Source of the DNA: Nitrospirota bacterium
GTDB taxonomy: Bacteria > Nitrospirota > Thermodesulfovibrionia > UBA6902
Assembly (NCBI GenBank): GCA_016234115.1
Contig: JACRHD010000067.1
Location: 77,875-141,874 of the forward strand
Direction: 5' to 3'
DNA: 64,000 bases
A model generated the notes under the pieces. It was not told where the DNA came from, did not search any database, and was given only the letters and a program-made list of their open reading frames with translations. The position numbers and the translations under genes are program-made. Shown here piece after piece: positions 53,200-60,672 of the stretch; the stretch's first letter is position 1, and each line of letters starts with the position of its first letter.

Positions 53200-54627
53200 A
53201 TGAGCACTGCAATTAAAGAGACCCAAAAAATGATAGAAGAAGTTCTTGACGCGTATCCTGAGAAGGCGAAGAAGGACCGCGCCAGGCACCTTGCAGCCAA
53301 TGACCCGACGGGGCAGTGCAGCGCCTGCCAGGTCAAGTCAAACATAAAATCCCGTCCCGGGGTCATGACGGTCAGGGGATGCGCGTACGCAGGCGCGAAG
53401 GGCGTTGTCTGGGGGCCTGTCAAGGACCAGATTACCATCAGCCACGGCCCTGTCGGGTGCGGCCAGTATAGCTGGTGGTCCAGGAGAAATTATTACAACG
53501 GTCAGACCGGTATCGATACATTCGGAACAATGCACATCACAACAGACTTTCAGGAGAAGGACATTGTGTACGGAGGCGACAAGAATTTAGATGCGGCGTT
53601 GCGCGAATTGAAGGAGCTGTTCCCGTTGGCCAAAAGCATGGGCATACTCTCGGAATGCCCTGTCGGTCTTATAGGAGACGACATCGAAGCGGTATCCAAA
53701 AAGGCTGAAAAGGAATTTGCCATGCCTGTCGTGCCGGTGAGATGCGAGGGATTCAGGGGCGTGAGCCAGTCGCTTGGACATCACATCGCCAACGATACCA
53801 TAAGGGACCACATCCTCGGCAAGGGACAGCTTGAATCGTCCACGCCCTATGATGTCGCGCTTATCGGAGATTACAACATCGGCGGAGACGCATGGGCGTC
53901 GAGGAAGATGCTTGAGGAGCTCGGTCTCAGAGTTATCGCGCAGTGGACCGGCGACGCCTCGATAAACGAGATGGGGATAGCGCACAAGGCAAAGGTGAAT
54001 CTTGTCCACTGTTACCGTTCCATGAATTACATTTGCAGGCATATGGAAGAGCAGTACGGCATCCCGTGGACGGAGTTTAATTTCTTCGGCCCGACAAAGA
54101 TATACCAGAGCCTCAGAAAGATCGCCTCGCATTTTGATGACGGTATCAAAGAGAATGCCGAGAAGATGATCGCTAAATACAAGCCGGTGATGGACGCGGT
54201 CATAGAGGAGTTCAAACCGGGACTTGAAGGCAAGAGGGTAATGCTTTATGTAGGCGGTTTGAGGCCGAGGCATACCATCGGCGCATATGAAGACCTCGGC
54301 ATGGAGGTCGTGGCTTCAGGCTATGAATTCGGCCACAGCGACGATTATAAAAGGACCTATCCCGAGATGAAGGAAGGAGCTGTGATCATGGACGATGCAA
54401 CGCTTTACGAGCTCGAAGAGTTCACCAGAAGGCTCAATCCCGATATGGTCGGCTCGGGGATCAAAGAGAAATATTCCTATCATAAGCTCGGGGTGCCTTT
54501 CAGACAGATGCACTCCTGGGATTATTCAGGGCCGTATCACGGTTTTGACGGATTTCCCGTTTTCGCCAGAGATATGGACATGACGGTAAACAGCCCGACA
54601 TGGGGTTTGATAAGAAAGAACAAGTGA
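53200..54627 (+). CDS. nifD: Nitrogenase MoFe protein alpha chain
   Basis: A 475-residue subunit of the N2-reducing alpha2beta2 enzyme. P-cluster ligands are Cys61, Cys87 and Cys153; FeMo-cofactor ligands are Cys271 (LVHCYRS) and His438 ([14 protein letters not shown]). N-terminal [22 protein letters not shown] and the lack of a long mid-chain insertion resemble group I (proteobacterial-type) Mo nitrogenase. AAGGAGG precedes the ATG. The last Lys codon and TGA stop (54622-54627) are the first bases of a heptad repeat. Confidence 0.98.
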
Positions 54628-54706
54628 GAAGTTAAAAGTGGGAAGTGAGAAGTAAAGACAACCGACCCTTTTTACTTCCCACTTCCTACTTCCTACTTCT
54701 TACTTA
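54621..54706. repeat. Heptad-built palindromic element, GAAGTNN family
   Basis: Between nifD and nifK, including the nifD stop codon. The left arm is CAAGTGA-GAAGTTA-AAAGTGG units; the right arm (about 54671-54706) is the inverse with the same 7-nt period. The nifK ribosome binding site starts immediately after it. Confidence 0.85.
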
Positions 54707-54722
54707 ATATAAGGAGGAACAC

Positions 54723-56228
54723 ATGAAGATAAAAGACCACAATGAACTATTTCAGGAGCAGGAGTACGTCGAGCAGTTTGAGCGGAAGAAGGAGTTTGAG
54801 AATTGTCCGTCTGCTGAGGAAGTGCAGCGTATAGGGGAATGGACAAAGACAGAGGAGTACAGGGAACTCAATTTCAAACGGCAGAACATAAAGATCAATC
54901 CGGCGAAGGCATGCCAGCCTCTGGGCGCGGTATTCTGCGCCTCGGGTTTTGAAGGGACGCTGCCCTTTGTGCAAGGAGCGCAGGGGTGTGTCGCTTATTT
55001 CAGGAGCCATCTGAGCAGGCATTTTAAAGAACCGATGACAGCGGTATCCACCTCCATGACGGAAGACGCGGCGGTGTTCGGCGGATTGAACAACATGCTT
55101 GAAGGACTTGAGAATGCCTACACTCTTTATCATCCGAAGATGCTTGCGGTCTGCACAACATGTATGGCAGAGGTGATCGGCGATGACCTCAATGCCTACA
55201 TAAGGACCGCGCGGGAAAAAGGGGCCATCCCTCAGGAGCTGCCGGTCCCCTTTGCGCACACGCCGAGTTTTGTCGGCTCAAATATCACCGGGTACGACAA
55301 TATGATGAAGGGCATACTCACCGCCGTTACGGCAGGCAGGAAAGGCGAGCCGAATGGAAAGATAAATATTATCCCCGGCTTTGATACTTATACGGGGAAT
55401 TACCGGGAATTGAAAAGGCTTCTCGATATAATGGAAGTAAGGCATACGATTTTAGCCGACGTGAGCGATATTTATGATTCTCCCAATTCGGGTGAGTATA
55501 AATTGTATCCGGGCGGAACACTACTTGCCGACGCCGCGGATTCGATTAATGCAACGGCAACCATTGCACTTCAGAAGTATTCGACTGCAAAGACACTGGA
55601 CTATATCAGCAAGGAATGGAGCCAGACTGTTTCAGCGCTTCCTCCTGTCGGCATAAAGAATACGGACAGCTTTTTTGAAGAGATAGGCAAAATTACCGGC
55701 AAGCCGGTCCCGCAGGAAATTGAGGACGAAAGAGGACGCGCAGTGGATGCGATGATTGATTCGCACCCCTATGTTCACGGCAAGAGGTTTGCCCTTGTCG
55801 GCGATCCCGACCTCCTGCTTGGATTGATAAGTTTCCTGATGGAGATCGGCGGGTCCCCTGTTCATATCGTCTGTACAAACGGTGACAAAAAATTCAGGGA
55901 AGACGCCGAAGCCATTTTAAGTGAAAGTCCGTTCGGACAGGAAGGCAAGGTTTATATCCATAAAGACATGTGGCACCTGCGTTCATTGATGTTTACAGAG
56001 CCGGTGGATTTTCTCATAGGGAATTCCTACGCGAAGCTTCTCTGGCGCGACACGGGGACCCCGCTTATCAGGATAGGGTTCCCGCTGTTTGACAGGCACC
56101 ACCTCCACAGGTATCCGATTATCGGCTATCACGGAGCGCTGAACCTGGTGTGCCTGATTGTCAACACAGTGCTTGATGAAATGGACAGAAAGACAATGAA
56201 CACAACGAGCTTTGATGTGATACGGTGA
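54723..56228 (+). CDS. nifK: Nitrogenase MoFe protein beta chain
   Basis: A 501-residue subunit. P-cluster ligands are Cys64 (AKACQPLGA), Cys89 (GAQGCVAYF) and Cys147 (CTTCMAEVIGDD). The N-terminal extension of about 55 residues before the core is of intermediate length, and VEQFERKKEFENCPS is typical of the group I family. AAGGAGG is 5 bp before the ATG. It is followed by an 106 bp gap filled by another hairpin element. Confidence 0.98.
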   Translation: MKIKDHNELFQEQEYVEQFERKKEFENCPSAEEVQRIGEWTKTEEYRELNFKRQNIKINPAKACQPLGAVFCASGFEGTLPFVQGAQGCVAYFRSHLSRHFKEPMTAVSTSMTEDAAVFGGLNNMLEGLENAYTLYHPKMLAVCTTCMAEVIGDDLNAYIRTAREKGAIPQELPVPFAHTPSFVGSNITGYDNMMKGILTAVTAGRKGEPNGKINIIPGFDTYTGNYRELKRLLDIMEVRHTILADVSDIYDSPNSGEYKLYPGGTLLADAADSINATATIALQKYSTAKTLDYISKEWSQTVSALPPVGIKNTDSFFEEIGKITGKPVPQEIEDERGRAVDAMIDSHPYVHGKRFALVGDPDLLLGLISFLMEIGGSPVHIVCTNGDKKFREDAEAILSESPFGQEGKVYIHKDMWHLRSLMFTEPVDFLIGNSYAKLLWRDTGTPLIRIGFPLFDRHHLHRYPIIGYHGALNLVCLIVNTVLDEMDRKTMNTTSFDVIR

Positions 56229-56230
56229 AG

Positions 56231-56313
56231 GATAACTCCCCCTTCCCCCTCTTACATTAAGAGGGGGTTTAGTCCCTCCCCTTATTTAAGGGGAGGTTAG
56301 GAGGGGTTATTAA
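56231..56313. repeat. Palindromic element, CTCCCCC/GAGGGGG family
   Basis: Between nifK and nifEN. Two nested hairpins: CCCCCTCTTA / TAAGAGGGGG (loop of 2-4 nt) and CTCCCCTTATTTAAGGGGAG. A related copy is inside nifEN at 56862-56951. Confidence 0.85.
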
Positions 56314-56334
56314 ATAAAAGAGGAAGGTTCAACC

Positions 56335-59001
56335 ATGCTGACAGGCATAGACAAATTAACACAAGGCGGATGCGAACGGGAAAAGAAGGACAGGATCTGC
56401 CGTTCACGCGGAGGCGAGTCCTGCGCCTTTGACGGCGCGATGATTGTGCTCCAGCCCATTGCCGACACAGCGCACGTTGTTCACGGCCCTATTGCATGCT
56501 GCGGGAACTCCTGGGAAGGAAGAGGCACGTCATCTTCAAAAGGCTACCTGCACCGCATGGGATTTACAACAGACATGAATGAAATGGACATCGTTTACGG
56601 TTCAGAGGAAAAACTTTTCCTTGCCGTCAGGAGGGCTTATGAGACGGTAAAACCAAAGGCGATATTTGTTTATGCAACTTGCGTAAGCGGCCTGACAGGA
56701 GAGGATATAGAGTCCGTATGCAAAAAAGCTGAAGCAGAGCTGTCGATACGCGTTATCCCGGTGAATGCGCCGGGTTTTGTGGGACCGAAGAATCTCGGAA
56801 ATAGAATAGCGGGAGAAGTGCTTCTTGATTATGTAATAGGGACGGGTACCCCCCGCTCCGGAAATCCTAACTCCCCCTGTCCCCCTCTCATTTTAAGAGG
56901 GGGTGACGAAGCCGGGGGCGTTACTCTTAAGGGCGAAACTCAAGGGGGTATCAACCTTATCGGCGAGTACAACATCGCAGGCGACCTGTGGCTTGTTGAA
57001 CCGGTTTTAAAGGATGCCGGAATAAGAATCCTCTCAAGGATTACAGGAGATTCAACTTTTGAAGAAATTACATACGCACATCGGGCGGAACTGAATGTCG
57101 TCGTTTGCAGCCGGGCATTGATAAACGTAGCAAAAGAAATGGAGAAGCGGTACGGCATTCCTTATATTGAAGTTTCTTTTTTCGGAAAGACGGAGATGAA
57201 GAAGGCGCTGAGAATAATAGGGTCAAGGGTCAAGGGGCAAGGGGCAAGGGAAATAGAATCAATCATCGCAAGAGAAGAGAAACAGCTTGAAGAAAAATTG
57301 AAAGCATACTCATATCTGAAAGGCAAAAAAGCCGTTCTCTACACCGGCGGGGTGAAGAGCTGGTCCTTTATTTCCGCGCTTCTTGATCTGGGGATTGAGA
57401 TTGTTGCAGTCGGCACAAAGAAGAGCACATTTGAAGACGAAGAGAAGATGAAAGAGATACTCGGAAAGGATGCTCCTCTTGTTGAAGATGTGACGCCCAG
57501 GAACCTGCTGAGACTCCTGAAAGAGAAAAACGCCGACATCCTTGTGGCGGGAGGCAGGAATCAGTATCTTGCTGTAAAGGCAGGTTCCCCTTTTGTGGAC
57601 GTGAATCAGGAAAGACATACTGCATATGCAGGCTATGAAGGGTTGGTTAATTTTGCGGAGCAGATAAGCAACAGCATGAAGTTCTACGACGGGGGCAGGG
57701 GTCAAGGGGCAAGGGTCATGGGGCAGGGAAGAATTGCTCTTACACCTAAACGTGAGGTTGTCATTAACCCTCTCAGTCACTCCCAGTCCATAGGCGCTGC
57801 GATTGCGTTTCAGGGCGTTAATAATTCGATACCGGTCATTCACGGGGCGCAGGGCTGTACATTCCTTGGTAAAGTGCTTTTGACAAAACATTTCAGAGAA
57901 CCCATCGCGCTTGAAAGTACGAAGCTTTTTACCGAAGACGTGGTGATGGGCAGTGATGAAAATCTCGCTAAAACCATCGAGGGGATTATAGAGAAGAACA
58001 GCCCTGATGTTATCGGAGTTCTGACTTCGGGACTCTCTGAGGTAAAGGGGGATGACGTGGCAGGCTCTTTGAAAAGGGGCCAGGGGCCGGGGTCCCGGGT
58101 CAAGGTTATCCATGTCCCGACTCCTGATTATGAAGGTGGTTTGGAAACAGGTTACGCAAAGGCGGTAGAGGCTTTGTTGGGCGCTATTTTGACTTGCCCC
58201 TTGCCCCTTGCCCCTTGCCCCTCCAATCAGATCAACGTCCTTGCCGGTTCACATCTGACCCCTGCCGATTTTACGGAGCTAAGGGAGATCGTTGAAGCGT
58301 TCGGATTAAGACCGATTATACTTCCCGACCTTTCCGCGCTTGACGGCAGCAGGCAGGGATTCTCTGCAATCGCGGTTGGGGGGACTGACGTTGAAGATAT
58401 AAAGAGAATGGCAAGCTCTGCGTTTACACTTGCCGTAGGAGCGAGCATGGGACCGGCCGCAAGGCTGTTGAATGAAAAGTTCGGCATCGAATATTCGGTA
58501 TTTGAAAGCGTGTCGGGGTTGAATGATACGGACATCTTTGTGCAGACGCTTGTATTTCTAAGCGGCAAGCCGGTCCCCGCCAGATACGAAAGGCAGAGGA
58601 GAATACTGATCGACGGTATGAGGGACGCTCATTTTTATTTCGGAGGGAAAAAAGTCTGTATTGCCCTTGAGCCTGATCCGGCTATTCAGACTTCAGTATG
58701 GATTAGTGAAATAGGCGCAGAGACAACACTTGCGGTCATTCCTCAGAATACAATAAACGCAGGGAAAATTCTTGCGAAAGAAGTGCTTGTCTCAGACCTG
58801 TTTTCGGTAGATGGTGATTATGACCTGCTCATTTCAAACTCACACGCTGAAGACACGGCAAAGAAGCTGGGAATTCCATTGTTTGAGATGGGGTTCCCTG
58901 TTTATAAAGTCATAGGGAACAGTTCAAGGATGACGATAGGGTATAGAGGAACCCTTGCCGCGATAAATGAAGCAGGTAATATTCTTTTGAGAAAGGGGTA
59001 G
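56335..59001 (+). CDS. nifEN: NifE-NifN fusion protein, FeMo-cofactor scaffold
   Basis: An 888-residue fusion of the two scaffold subunits on which the L-cluster (NifB-co) matures to FeMo-cofactor. NifE part (1 to about 445): ICRSRGGESCAFDGA, HGPIACCGNSW, VYATCVSGLTGED and TGGVKSWSF. NifN part (about 465-888): INPLSHSQSIGAAIAFQG, HGAQGCTFL, TSGLSEVKGDD and VPTPDYEGG. Five segments are encoded by G/C-rich repeats, including the joint GGRGQGARVMGQGR near residues 452-465 and a 30-35 residue insert (residues about 175-207) in the NifE half. The frame is open throughout. NifEN fusions are known from some Geobacterales; the repeat-derived parts are unusual. Confidence 0.95.
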   Translation: MLTGIDKLTQGGCEREKKDRICRSRGGESCAFDGAMIVLQPIADTAHVVHGPIACCGNSWEGRGTSSSKGYLHRMGFTTDMNEMDIVYGSEEKLFLAVRRAYETVKPKAIFVYATCVSGLTGEDIESVCKKAEAELSIRVIPVNAPGFVGPKNLGNRIAGEVLLDYVIGTGTPRSGNPNSPCPPLILRGGDEAGGVTLKGETQGGINLIGEYNIAGDLWLVEPVLKDAGIRILSRITGDSTFEEITYAHRAELNVVVCSRALINVAKEMEKRYGIPYIEVSFFGKTEMKKALRIIGSRVKGQGAREIESIIAREEKQLEEKLKAYSYLKGKKAVLYTGGVKSWSFISALLDLGIEIVAVGTKKSTFEDEEKMKEILGKDAPLVEDVTPRNLLRLLKEKNADILVAGGRNQYLAVKAGSPFVDVNQERHTAYAGYEGLVNFAEQISNSMKFYDGGRGQGARVMGQGRIALTPKREVVINPLSHSQSIGAAIAFQGVNNSIPVIHGAQGCTFLGKVLLTKHFREPIALESTKLFTEDVVMGSDENLAKTIEGIIEKNSPDVIGVLTSGLSEVKGDDVAGSLKRGQGPGSRVKVIHVPTPDYEGGLETGYAKAVEALLGAILTCPLPLAPCPSNQINVLAGSHLTPADFTELREIVEAFGLRPIILPDLSALDGSRQGFSAIAVGGTDVEDIKRMASSAFTLAVGASMGPAARLLNEKFGIEYSVFESVSGLNDTDIFVQTLVFLSGKPVPARYERQRRILIDGMRDAHFYFGGKKVCIALEPDPAIQTSVWISEIGAETTLAVIPQNTINAGKILAKEVLVSDLFSVDGDYDLLISNSHAEDTAKKLGIPLFEMGFPVYKVIGNSSRMTIGYRGTLAAINEAGNILLRKG
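56862..56951. repeat. In-frame palindromic insert in the NifE half, CTCCCCC family
   Basis: ACTCCCCCTGTCCCCCTCTCA and the inverse GAGGGGGTGA lie inside the coding region, matching the element at 56231-56313. It encodes about 30 residues (SGNPNSPCPPLILRGG and on) between YVIGTG and LIGEYN, where other NifE proteins have a loop of around 12 residues. About 90 bp, so frame is kept. Confidence 0.85.
57220..57250. repeat. In-frame heptad run in NifE half, GGGKCAA family
   Basis: GGGTCAA-GGGTCAA-GGGGCAA-GGGGCAA-GGG, exact 7-nt period. It encodes SRVKGQGARE before the helix SIIAREEKQ. No inverse arm is adjacent. Confidence 0.85.
57690..57728. repeat. Heptad run at the NifE/NifN joint, GGGKCAA family
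   Basis: GGGGGCAGGGGTCAAGGGGC and AAGGGTCATGGGGCAGGG encode the linker GGRGQGARVMGQGR between the NifE and NifN halves. The period is 7 nt with some substitutions. Confidence 0.85.
58071..58105. repeat. In-frame run in NifN half, GGGKCAA family
   Basis: AAAAGGGGCCAGGGGCCGGG and TCCCGGGTCAAGG encode LKRGQGPGSRVKV. The inverse sequence CTTGCCCC lies at 58191-58223, so the two runs could pair across about 85 nt of message. Confidence 0.8.
58191..58223. repeat. In-frame heptad run in NifN half, inverse orientation
   Basis: CTTGCCC repeated four times with exact 7-nt period. It encodes TCPLPLAPCPS, an odd Cys-Pro-rich loop before QINVLAGSHLTP. It is the inverse of the runs at 57220, 57690 and 58071. 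Confidence 0.85.
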
Positions 59002-59628: not shown

Positions 59629-59692
59629 TCAACCACAGAGACACGGAGGCACGGAGGAGAAAAATCTCTGTGTCTCAGTGCCTCTGTGGTTT
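59629..59692. repeat. Palindromic element, CACAGAG family
   Basis: Between nifX and nifI1. AACCACAGAGACACGGAGG and its inverse CTCTGTGTCTC...CCTCTGTGGTT pair over about 26 bp with a few mismatches. Units are 8 nt. Confidence 0.88.
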
Positions 59693-60031: not shown

Positions 60032-60040
60032 ACAAAAATA

Positions 60041-60131
60041 AAGTAAGAAGTGGGAAGTTAGAAGTCGGAAGTAGAAAGCAGGATATCTTATTTTTATTTT
60101 ACTTCTTACTTCTCACTTCCTACTTCTTACT
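60041..60131. repeat. Heptad-built palindromic element, GAAGTNN family
   Basis: Between nifI1 and nifI2. The left arm is GAAGTGG-GAAGTTA-GAAGTCG-GAAGTAG, exact 7-nt period; the right arm is the inverse CTTACTTCTCACTTCCTACTT. The nifI2 ribosome binding site follows. Confidence 0.9.
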
Positions 60132-60158
60132 TAAATTTAAACAAGGAGGTCGGGTGAT

Positions 60159-60575
60159 ATGAAAGAGATTACGGCGATTATAAGGAGAGACAAGCTGCCT
60201 GAAACCAAGCAGGCACTTGATGAACTGGGATATTCTTCACTGACAATACAGAGCGTAGATGGAAGGGGGAAACAGAAGGGCGCAATGTGCGCTGAGATGG
60301 ATTCTGAAATGCCTGAGAGTTTCTGCACCACGGTTAAGTTGAAACCCACGCCGTCCACTTACGCGCTTGAGCATACATTGCCGAAGATTGCCCTTTATGT
60401 GCCCAAGAGAATGCTCACGCTGATTGTGCCTGATGATGCTGTGAGCAAGCTTGTGAAATCAATTATAAAGGTCAACCAGTCAGGCAAACGCGGAGACGGA
60501 AAGATATTTGTTTCGCCCGTTGAAGGCGCAGTGAGGGTGAGGACCGGCGAGATGGATGGAGAGGCGATAACTTAA
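60159..60575 (+). CDS. nifI2: PII-like nitrogenase switch-off regulator NifI2
   Basis: A 138-residue PII-family protein, longer than NifI1 because of an extended T-loop region (about residues 45-80) as usual for NifI2. Begins MKEITAIIRRDKLPETKQALDELGYSSLT; ends GDGKIFVSPVEGAVRVRTGE. VPKRMLTLIVPDD is the family core. AAGGAGG is 9 bp before the ATG. Its partner NifI1 is just upstream across a hairpin element. Confidence 0.93.
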   Translation: MKEITAIIRRDKLPETKQALDELGYSSLTIQSVDGRGKQKGAMCAEMDSEMPESFCTTVKLKPTPSTYALEHTLPKIALYVPKRMLTLIVPDDAVSKLVKSIIKVNQSGKRGDGKIFVSPVEGAVRVRTGEMDGEAIT

Positions 60576-60579
60576 AAAC

Positions 60580-60653
60580 AGGGTCAAGGGACAGGGGGCA
60601 AGGGGCAAGTAAAGACTTTTCACCCTTGACCCGTGCCCCCTGCCCCTTGACCC
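60580..60653. repeat. Heptad-built palindromic element, GGGKCAA family
   Basis: Between nifI2 and the ferredoxin gene. GGGTCAA-GGGACAG-GGGGCAA-GGGGCAA pairs with its inverse at 60621-60653 (loop about 12 nt). It is the complete two-armed form of the runs seen inside nifEN. Confidence 0.9.
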
Positions 60654-60672
60654 ATTATTTCCTGGAGGGATT

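Follow-up and report, generated by a model that had tools for sequence, protein, structure and literature searches.

Dispersed heptad and palindromic repeats as a probable source of variable loops in the fused NifEN protein of Thermodesulfovibrionia and in other conserved enzymes

In a stretch of DNA from a Nitrospirota bacterium (Thermodesulfovibrionia, UBA6902; GenBank assembly GCA_016234115.1, contig JACRHD010000067.1, positions 77,875–141,874, 64,000 nucleotides, hereafter the window), a fused nifEN gene contains five segments of repetitive DNA, S1 to S5, inside its open frame (Table 1). The locus raises the question of how interspersed repeats, most of them with a unit of 7 bp, come to be part of a conserved enzyme gene. 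The answer that we consider very probable is that dispersed repeats occupy structurally permissive loops of NifEN in frame, gain, loss and exchange having taken place there many times. As part of the same reading, and with the same high confidence, we regard S2–S5 as heptad arrays and S1 as a GC-rich palindrome, mostly present as single arms of families that are dispersed through the genome and through the class. A repeat search and an ortholog comparison both find the five segments where the initial annotation had placed them.

The ortholog set, built from 15 fused NifEN sequences of the first search and 77 further loci, comprised 84 distinct sequences, almost all from separate genomes; nearly all of these genomes are metagenome assemblies and the species are not independent samples. 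No internal stop codon or frameshift is present in any of the 84. Chain ends aside, the variable stretches of more than 2 residues in their alignment are exactly residues 177–203, 299–305, 453–474, 582–590 and 617–631, that is, the five repeat sites and no other internal stretch. In the relatives the sites are filled by AAGTCAG (peptide QKSEVRS), AATTCAA (SKFKIQN), GTCAGCA or TTCACGA heptads, by palindromes read as PPFVKGG, HCEARSAEAIS...RNDR or IPACRESSFKNDPGQAGM, and elsewhere by a short native loop. S2 holds AAGTCAG, AAATCTC, AAAATTC or ACAGTTC heptads, or palindromes, in other species, and relatives have whole two-armed elements at S3 (heptads in L013, the HCEARSAEAIS palindrome in L057). 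Relatives retaining the same residues without the DNA repeat, which the initial annotation had named as a test, were not what we observed: the same sites are taken up by different repeats or left with a short native loop.

The repeat nature of these fillings is carried by the heptads. With a lag-7 score of 12/14 or better taken as an array, without choice of a family and with size-matched core segments, 81 of the 420 NifEN loops (84 orthologs at five sites) contain an array, against 0.25 expected in the core segments, a difference that excludes chance. The other periods give 0–5 arrays in the same loops, except for 14, a multiple of 7, with 62. Base identity at lag 7 is 0.351 in the loops versus 0.252 in the core, and the loops exceed the core at lags 7 and 14 only. 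About 49 heptad units are found across the orthologs. The S3 array of the window itself (57692–57728; 86% at period 14, 77% at period 7) falls under the cut-off. Inverted repeats are found in 68 loops versus 28 core segments per 420, which gives no independent support, the loops having been picked as variable; since these counts are not decisive alone, the case rests on the heptads.

S1 has no heptads in any of the 84 genomes and holds palindromic repeats only, with a palindrome core of about 36 bp. Its DNA repeats with 56238–56268 (repeat pair D5/I24), four further short copies are present in the genome, and the site is empty in L018, L041 and L088. A 201-residue open frame in a related genome (L028:1501–1599; G029:C27:2107–2205) matches the S1 insert only, with 67% identity over 33 residues, and the palindromic element is thus also read in another open reading frame (ORF).

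The turnover at these sites appears to be extensive. On the core tree the family label changes 22, 25, 22 and 13 times at S2 to S5, respectively, and the presence or absence of heptads 11, 15, 10 and 8 times; all of these are upper figures, near-identical units being counted as label changes. Between window positions 56830–58254 and L049:5188–7893 the S1, S2, S4 and S5 inserts are near-identical, and the core is more diverged than with other relatives. Third-position identity of this pair is 0.71 in the loops versus 0.50 far away, the opposite of the pattern seen with closer relatives. This suggests, as a lead, that loops may have been exchanged by recombination (gene conversion between species), the flank test being weak in that 64 of 727 circular shifts reach the observed value.

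How a 7-bp unit can be accommodated in an open frame follows from simple arithmetic. As 7 and 3 have no common factor, a perfect array runs through all phases within 21 nt and gives one and the same cyclic heptapeptide in each frame. On a given strand a unit is thus either stop-free or blocked in all frames alike. The statement of the initial annotation that heptad runs shift the frame with each unit although the total keeps it is therefore correct in its second half, since the array total must be a multiple of 3, and needs amendment in the first, since every frame of a perfect array gives one heptapeptide. Sense units are stop-free in 74 of 88 cases in NifEN and in 27 of 31 in other genes of the window genome (G000), compared to 22 of 76 on intergenic strands (Fisher p of 5e-13 for NifEN and 3e-8 for the other genes). 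S5 employs TTGCCCC rather than TTGACCC, which would give TGA. The S4 loops measure 16, 23 (+7) and 58 (+42) residues, with 20 and 27 (+7) also seen, and the S2 loops 13, 20 and 27 residues, and the length changes at these two sites fit steps of 21 nt. The idea of insertion, taken from the initial annotation, applies to some of the loops, which the repeats lengthen; at other sites, notably S4, the array replaced native codons and the loop length remained constant.

The same families are found outside the gene. The window genome, a 3.5-Mb draft, was surveyed in sampled stretches (about 464 kb) with genes called as simple ORFs. The GGGNCAA family gives 326 matches genome-wide and its reversed control pattern 0; tandem 7-bp units are thus dispersed genome-wide as in bacterial heptad (STRR-type) repeats. 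In the sample, 25 arrays lie in 51 kb of intergenic DNA versus 15 in 412 kb of coding DNA, making them denser between genes, and periods of 5–6 and 8–12 yield few arrays. In the 78 nif loci (805 kb), with arrays of at least 13/14, NifEN takes 44 of the 56 arrays, other ORFs 4 (3 of them at ORF ends) and intergenic DNA 8. For several genomes the family seen in NifEN is abundant across the genome as well (146 GGGTCAA matches in G000 and 17 in G027; 120 AAGTCAG matches in G006 and 71 in G003), and the two genomes with heptads near zero, G036 and G039, lack them in NifEN. We do not claim that all heptads share a TCA core, as the reversed control pattern is frequent too. The intergenic elements are hairpins with heptad arms: for 21 of the 25 arrays between genes, an inverted partner belonging to that family lies no more than 150 nt away, versus 3% at random places, with a usual spacer of 16–50 nt. 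In genes a partner is present for 5 of 15 arrays and the majority are single arms; the NifEN linker of L013 and CobB provide examples of complete two-armed copies in frame. The two-armed copies reported earlier from the gaps near nifEN are indeed there, both for GGGTCAA and for the S1 palindrome (Table 1).

Heptads are present in frame in several conserved enzymes and not in NifEN alone, and what the initial annotation called a rare view is neither rare nor specific to nifEN. The window genome has arrays inside the ORFs of Tgt, MqnC (L133), KdsB (L137), CobB (L144), HemC (two arrays), the Mur ligases MurC/MurD/MurE (L158) and NAD(P)HX epimerase/dehydratase (L148), many of which pass or approach the NCBIfam cut-offs. 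Two loops of HemC (hydroxymethylbilane synthase) contain 38 arrays, all with period 7, in a set of 31 sequences that includes the copy from the window genome twice; alongside the copy of the window genome (L145:943–1959, plus strand), most relatives (L172–L201) carry different heptad arrays in both loops, and in loop 2 two distinct families are often combined. In the Tgt set (L129:7965–9185, minus strand, with relatives L202–L231) nearly all of the 14 period-7 arrays lie in one loop, where GGGTCAA, AATTCAA and TTGCCCC arrays are stacked; this loop has 4–6 residues in several relatives versus more than 30 in the window genome.

The fused protein comprises a NifE half (residues ~1–450) and a NifN half (~470–888), exceeds the NCBIfam equivalog cut-offs of 505.1 bits for nifE (score 586.5) and 326.8 bits for nifN (score 448.8), and has the NifEN chains 9i0g and 3pdi as its top PDB sequence matches. 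Its dN/dS outside the loops against seven relatives is 0.09–0.12, and a core value of about 0.1 means that the gene is maintained by purifying selection. The AlphaFold model (78-sequence alignment; pLDDT 84.9, pTM 0.83) matches NifEN structures (9i0g; 3pdi, target TM 0.88–0.92). In this model S1, S4 and S5 each connect a helix to the core strand that follows it, S2 joins two helices and S3 forms the fusion linker; pLDDT is below 50 at residues 179–201 (S1) and 453–471 (S3).

Table 1. Coordinates of nifEN, of the repeats in its frame and of related repeats nearby (window positions)
Feature	Coordinates	Strand	Description
fused nifEN	56335–59001	+	single uninterrupted ORF, 888 aa; host of the in-frame repeats
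S1	56862–56951	+	palindromic element, CCCCCTCTCATTTTAAGAGGGGG core, within residues 172–205; peptide ...GNPNSPCPPLILRGGDEAGGVTLKGETQGG
S2	57219–57250	+	GGGTCAA/GGGGCAA heptads, residues ~296–306 (GSRVKGQGAR); period 7, 4.6 copies, 96%
S3	57690–57728	+	degenerate GGGTCAA heptads, NifE–NifN fusion linker, residues ~452–465 (GGRGQGARVMGQG)
S4	58071–58105	+	degenerate GGGTCAA-type heptads, residues ~579–591 (KRGQGPGSRVK); 12/14 at lag 7
S5	58191–58223	+	TTGCCCC heptads (array 58193–58222), reverse-strand GGGGCAA form, residues ~619–630 (TCPLPLAPCPS); period 7, 100%
GGGTCAA two-armed intergenic copy	60574–60660		arms 60574–60609 and 60625–60660, 83% complementary, 15-nt spacer (I6)
intergenic copy of the S1 palindrome family, upstream of nifEN	56226–56330		D5/I24; second genome match of S1 DNA, E 4.3e-6
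hairpin, AAGTNNG heptad arms (different family)	54610–54710		I4; tandem repeats 54622–54653 and 54673–54705
hairpin, AAGTNNG heptad arms	60035–60138		I2; arms 60035–60076 and 60097–60138, 83% complementary

The genes nifH, nifD and nifK lie upstream of the fused gene. A further short intergenic hairpin at window positions 59631–59691, composed of AACCACAGAGACACGGAGGCACGGAG and its inverted copy and located upstream of a P-II family gene, is apparently another dispersed repeat. The named relatives are metagenome-assembled genomes (MAGs) of Nitrospirota/Thermodesulfovibrionales, many from groundwater. A fused NifEN closely resembling the Nitrospirota form is also present in MAGs labelled Actinobacteria (L050, L110, L113, L114) and Aquicultor (L070), which suggests either transfer or mislabelled bins.

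Several explanations other than recurrent colonisation by dispersed repeats have to be weighed, and the most serious one, which we nevertheless think unlikely, is that each site acquired a single ancient array whose later differences reflect concerted evolution in place, the units being homogenised with the register kept. At S4 (residues 577–592 in the 84 orthologs) the TCA register relative to the 3' flank is identical in 23 of 24 TCA arrays belonging to different families (GGGTCAA, GATTCAC, AATTCAA, GAGTCAG and GTCAGCA), with p of about 5e-18 against uniform registers if relatedness is ignored, and the loop is often constant at 16 residues; loop 1 of HemC is nearly locked too, mostly in two neighbouring registers. 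This speaks for an ancient array, but the fixed register may also be explained by anchoring on native codons or by selection acting on the beta strand next to the loop, and at S3 the registers are spread across all seven phases. Moreover, heptads switch between presence and absence 10 times at S4 and 15 times at S3, unrelated palindromes stand in for them at S2, S3 and S5, and different sites within one species share units above expectation (p 0.008), which points to a genome-wide source. A mobilisation of the repeats as REP/REPIN-like elements by a RAYT-type (Y1 HUH) transposase appears still less probable. Y1_Tnp genes are found in 35 of 41 related genomes, the intergenic copies are hairpins and the Y1_Tnp count shows a weak rank correlation with the heptad count (rho 0.39, p 0.012). 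However, the heptad arms are tandem units of many sequences with no sequence in common, unlike a REP with its conserved palindrome and tetranucleotide tag; G028 has 17 Y1_Tnp matches and few heptads; and G010, G016 and G024, drafts that may miss genes, have heptads and no Y1_Tnp match, the NifEN of G010 having several arrays. These drafts and the weakness of the correlation leave RAYT unsupported as a sole driver.

We consider it improbable as well that the in-gene repeats are functional, as regulatory RNA hairpins or as adaptive binding loops. The hairpins formed by the intergenic copies could be read in this way, and regulatory roles were proposed for the heptad elements of Geobacter metallireducens (PMC2700814), but the copies inside genes mostly lack the second arm, and no family or peptide is conserved at one site across species. 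G-quadruplex formation as a general cause was rejected, many of the families being AT-rich. There is very little to be said for the view that these are ordinary low-complexity loops whose DNA repeat is a by-product of amino-acid composition. NifE of other phyla (Azotobacter) is also variable at S1; a nucleotide period of 7, however, is no multiple of 3 and cannot stem from peptide composition, the excess of identity in the loops at lag 7 (0.35 against 0.25), with other lags near background, contradicts this view, and the same DNA families occur between genes and on both strands. The least credible of all is an artefact of assembly or binning at G/C-rich repeats, a doubt already voiced in the initial annotation and suggested by the metagenomic origin of nearly all the genomes: the 84 orthologs are all open with different in-frame repeats in the same loops, in three enzymes unrelated to each other the arrays keep to the same loops, AT-rich families behave alike, and the single-contig genome G040 has heptads in both NifEN and HemC.

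Some observations weigh against the colonisation of permissive loops by dispersed repeats as we propose it. Steps of 21 nt stand out clearly at just two of the sites, S4 and S2, and the shared register at S4 is unexpected under simple random insertion. AATTCAA, with 138 matches in G000, is absent from the NifEN of this genome, and abundance alone is therefore not decisive. Finally, both selection and tolerance are deduced from sequence, and the repeat-bearing proteins are putative products. With these points in mind, a plausible course of events would begin with repeat arms entering genes by replication slippage or template switching, the entry being anchored on short similarity to native codons, after which the array could expand or contract. 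The frame-safe step for a 7-bp unit would be three units (21 bp, 7 codons), and a stop-free unit or strand would stay open in any phase. Selection would remove frameshifts, stop-containing units and insertions into the folded core, so that the surviving arrays would be those in loops between helices or strands and in the fusion linker. The register lock at S4 may reflect anchoring on heptad-like native codons, selection on the adjoining strand, or an old array re-templated in place. The proposal of the initial annotation that interspersed repeats became protein loops under the filter of selection is thus supported at the level of sequence, and we take these loops to be tolerated rather than useful.

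In-frame palindromic elements and intragenic heptads are already known. Rickettsia palindromic elements (RPE) lie in frame in protein genes, and an insert-bearing Gmk is translated and active (PMC2229807). As with RPE, the same family is found here between genes and in frame in conserved protein genes, and orthologs have empty sites with the gene open (S1 in the three loci named above; the Tgt loop of 4 versus more than 30 residues). RPE are, however, single conserved palindromes of 105–146 bp, whereas here we deal mostly with heptad arrays drawn from dozens of families, which vary between species within one and the same loop. In Geobacter metallireducens four GGACCGG repeats with 49 copies were described, including heptads inside genes; the accessible portion of that work (PMC2700814) treats one family in one genome and contains no loop mapping, cross-species turnover or frame argument of the present kind. 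MacGregor noted that stop codons on one strand limit the placement of TAACTGA heptads in genes of Beggiatoaceae and cyanobacteria, 10 sets lying inside ORFs in reverse orientation (PMC4679880). The same limit applies to our heptads, but the TAACTGA repeats are mostly a single family upstream of start codons, with inverted pairs very rare, and are not located in fixed enzyme loops. The GGGNATC heptads of Xanthomonas and Nostoc (PMC4692102) likewise form arrays genome-wide, most of them intergenic; they are under-represented in coding DNA and were explained by G-quadruplexes, which cannot cover the AT-rich families found here. In Borgs, too, DNA repeats within genes make new, often disordered segments under open-frame selection, but the units of ORF repeats are all divisible by three (PMC9879509), while our arrays have a unit of 7 and stay in frame through their net length and the absence of stops from the units. 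In the open-licence literature we found no account of multi-family heptad turnover in the same conserved-enzyme loops across a bacterial class.

The conversion of repeats to protein is usually seen as single relics, while the NifEN, HemC and Tgt loops offer many parallel cases. Sites that are empty, sites with a single arm or a whole hairpin, and switches of family exist side by side, and the steps by which a repeat enters coding sequence, including the allowed units, the step size, the place in the fold and the cost, become testable. The 7-bp unit also shows in a simple way that a repeat need not be divisible by three to be frame-safe. In modelling, annotation or engineering of NifEN from these organisms the loops should be treated as repeat-derived and probably dispensable. 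To judge from the sequences, repetitive DNA would have been turned repeatedly into protein loops in this group of groundwater bacteria, and the repeat differs from species to species. A more far-reaching possibility, which we advance tentatively, is that heptads are propagating DNA suited to genes, as their stop-free units, open whatever the frame, could enter any gene in any phase. In Thermodesulfovibrionia they would continually colonise and re-template the same surface loops of essential enzymes and change family without loss of register (NifEN S4, HemC loop 1). If this were true, the loops would record the turnover of repeats as it goes on and would steadily supply new protein segments.

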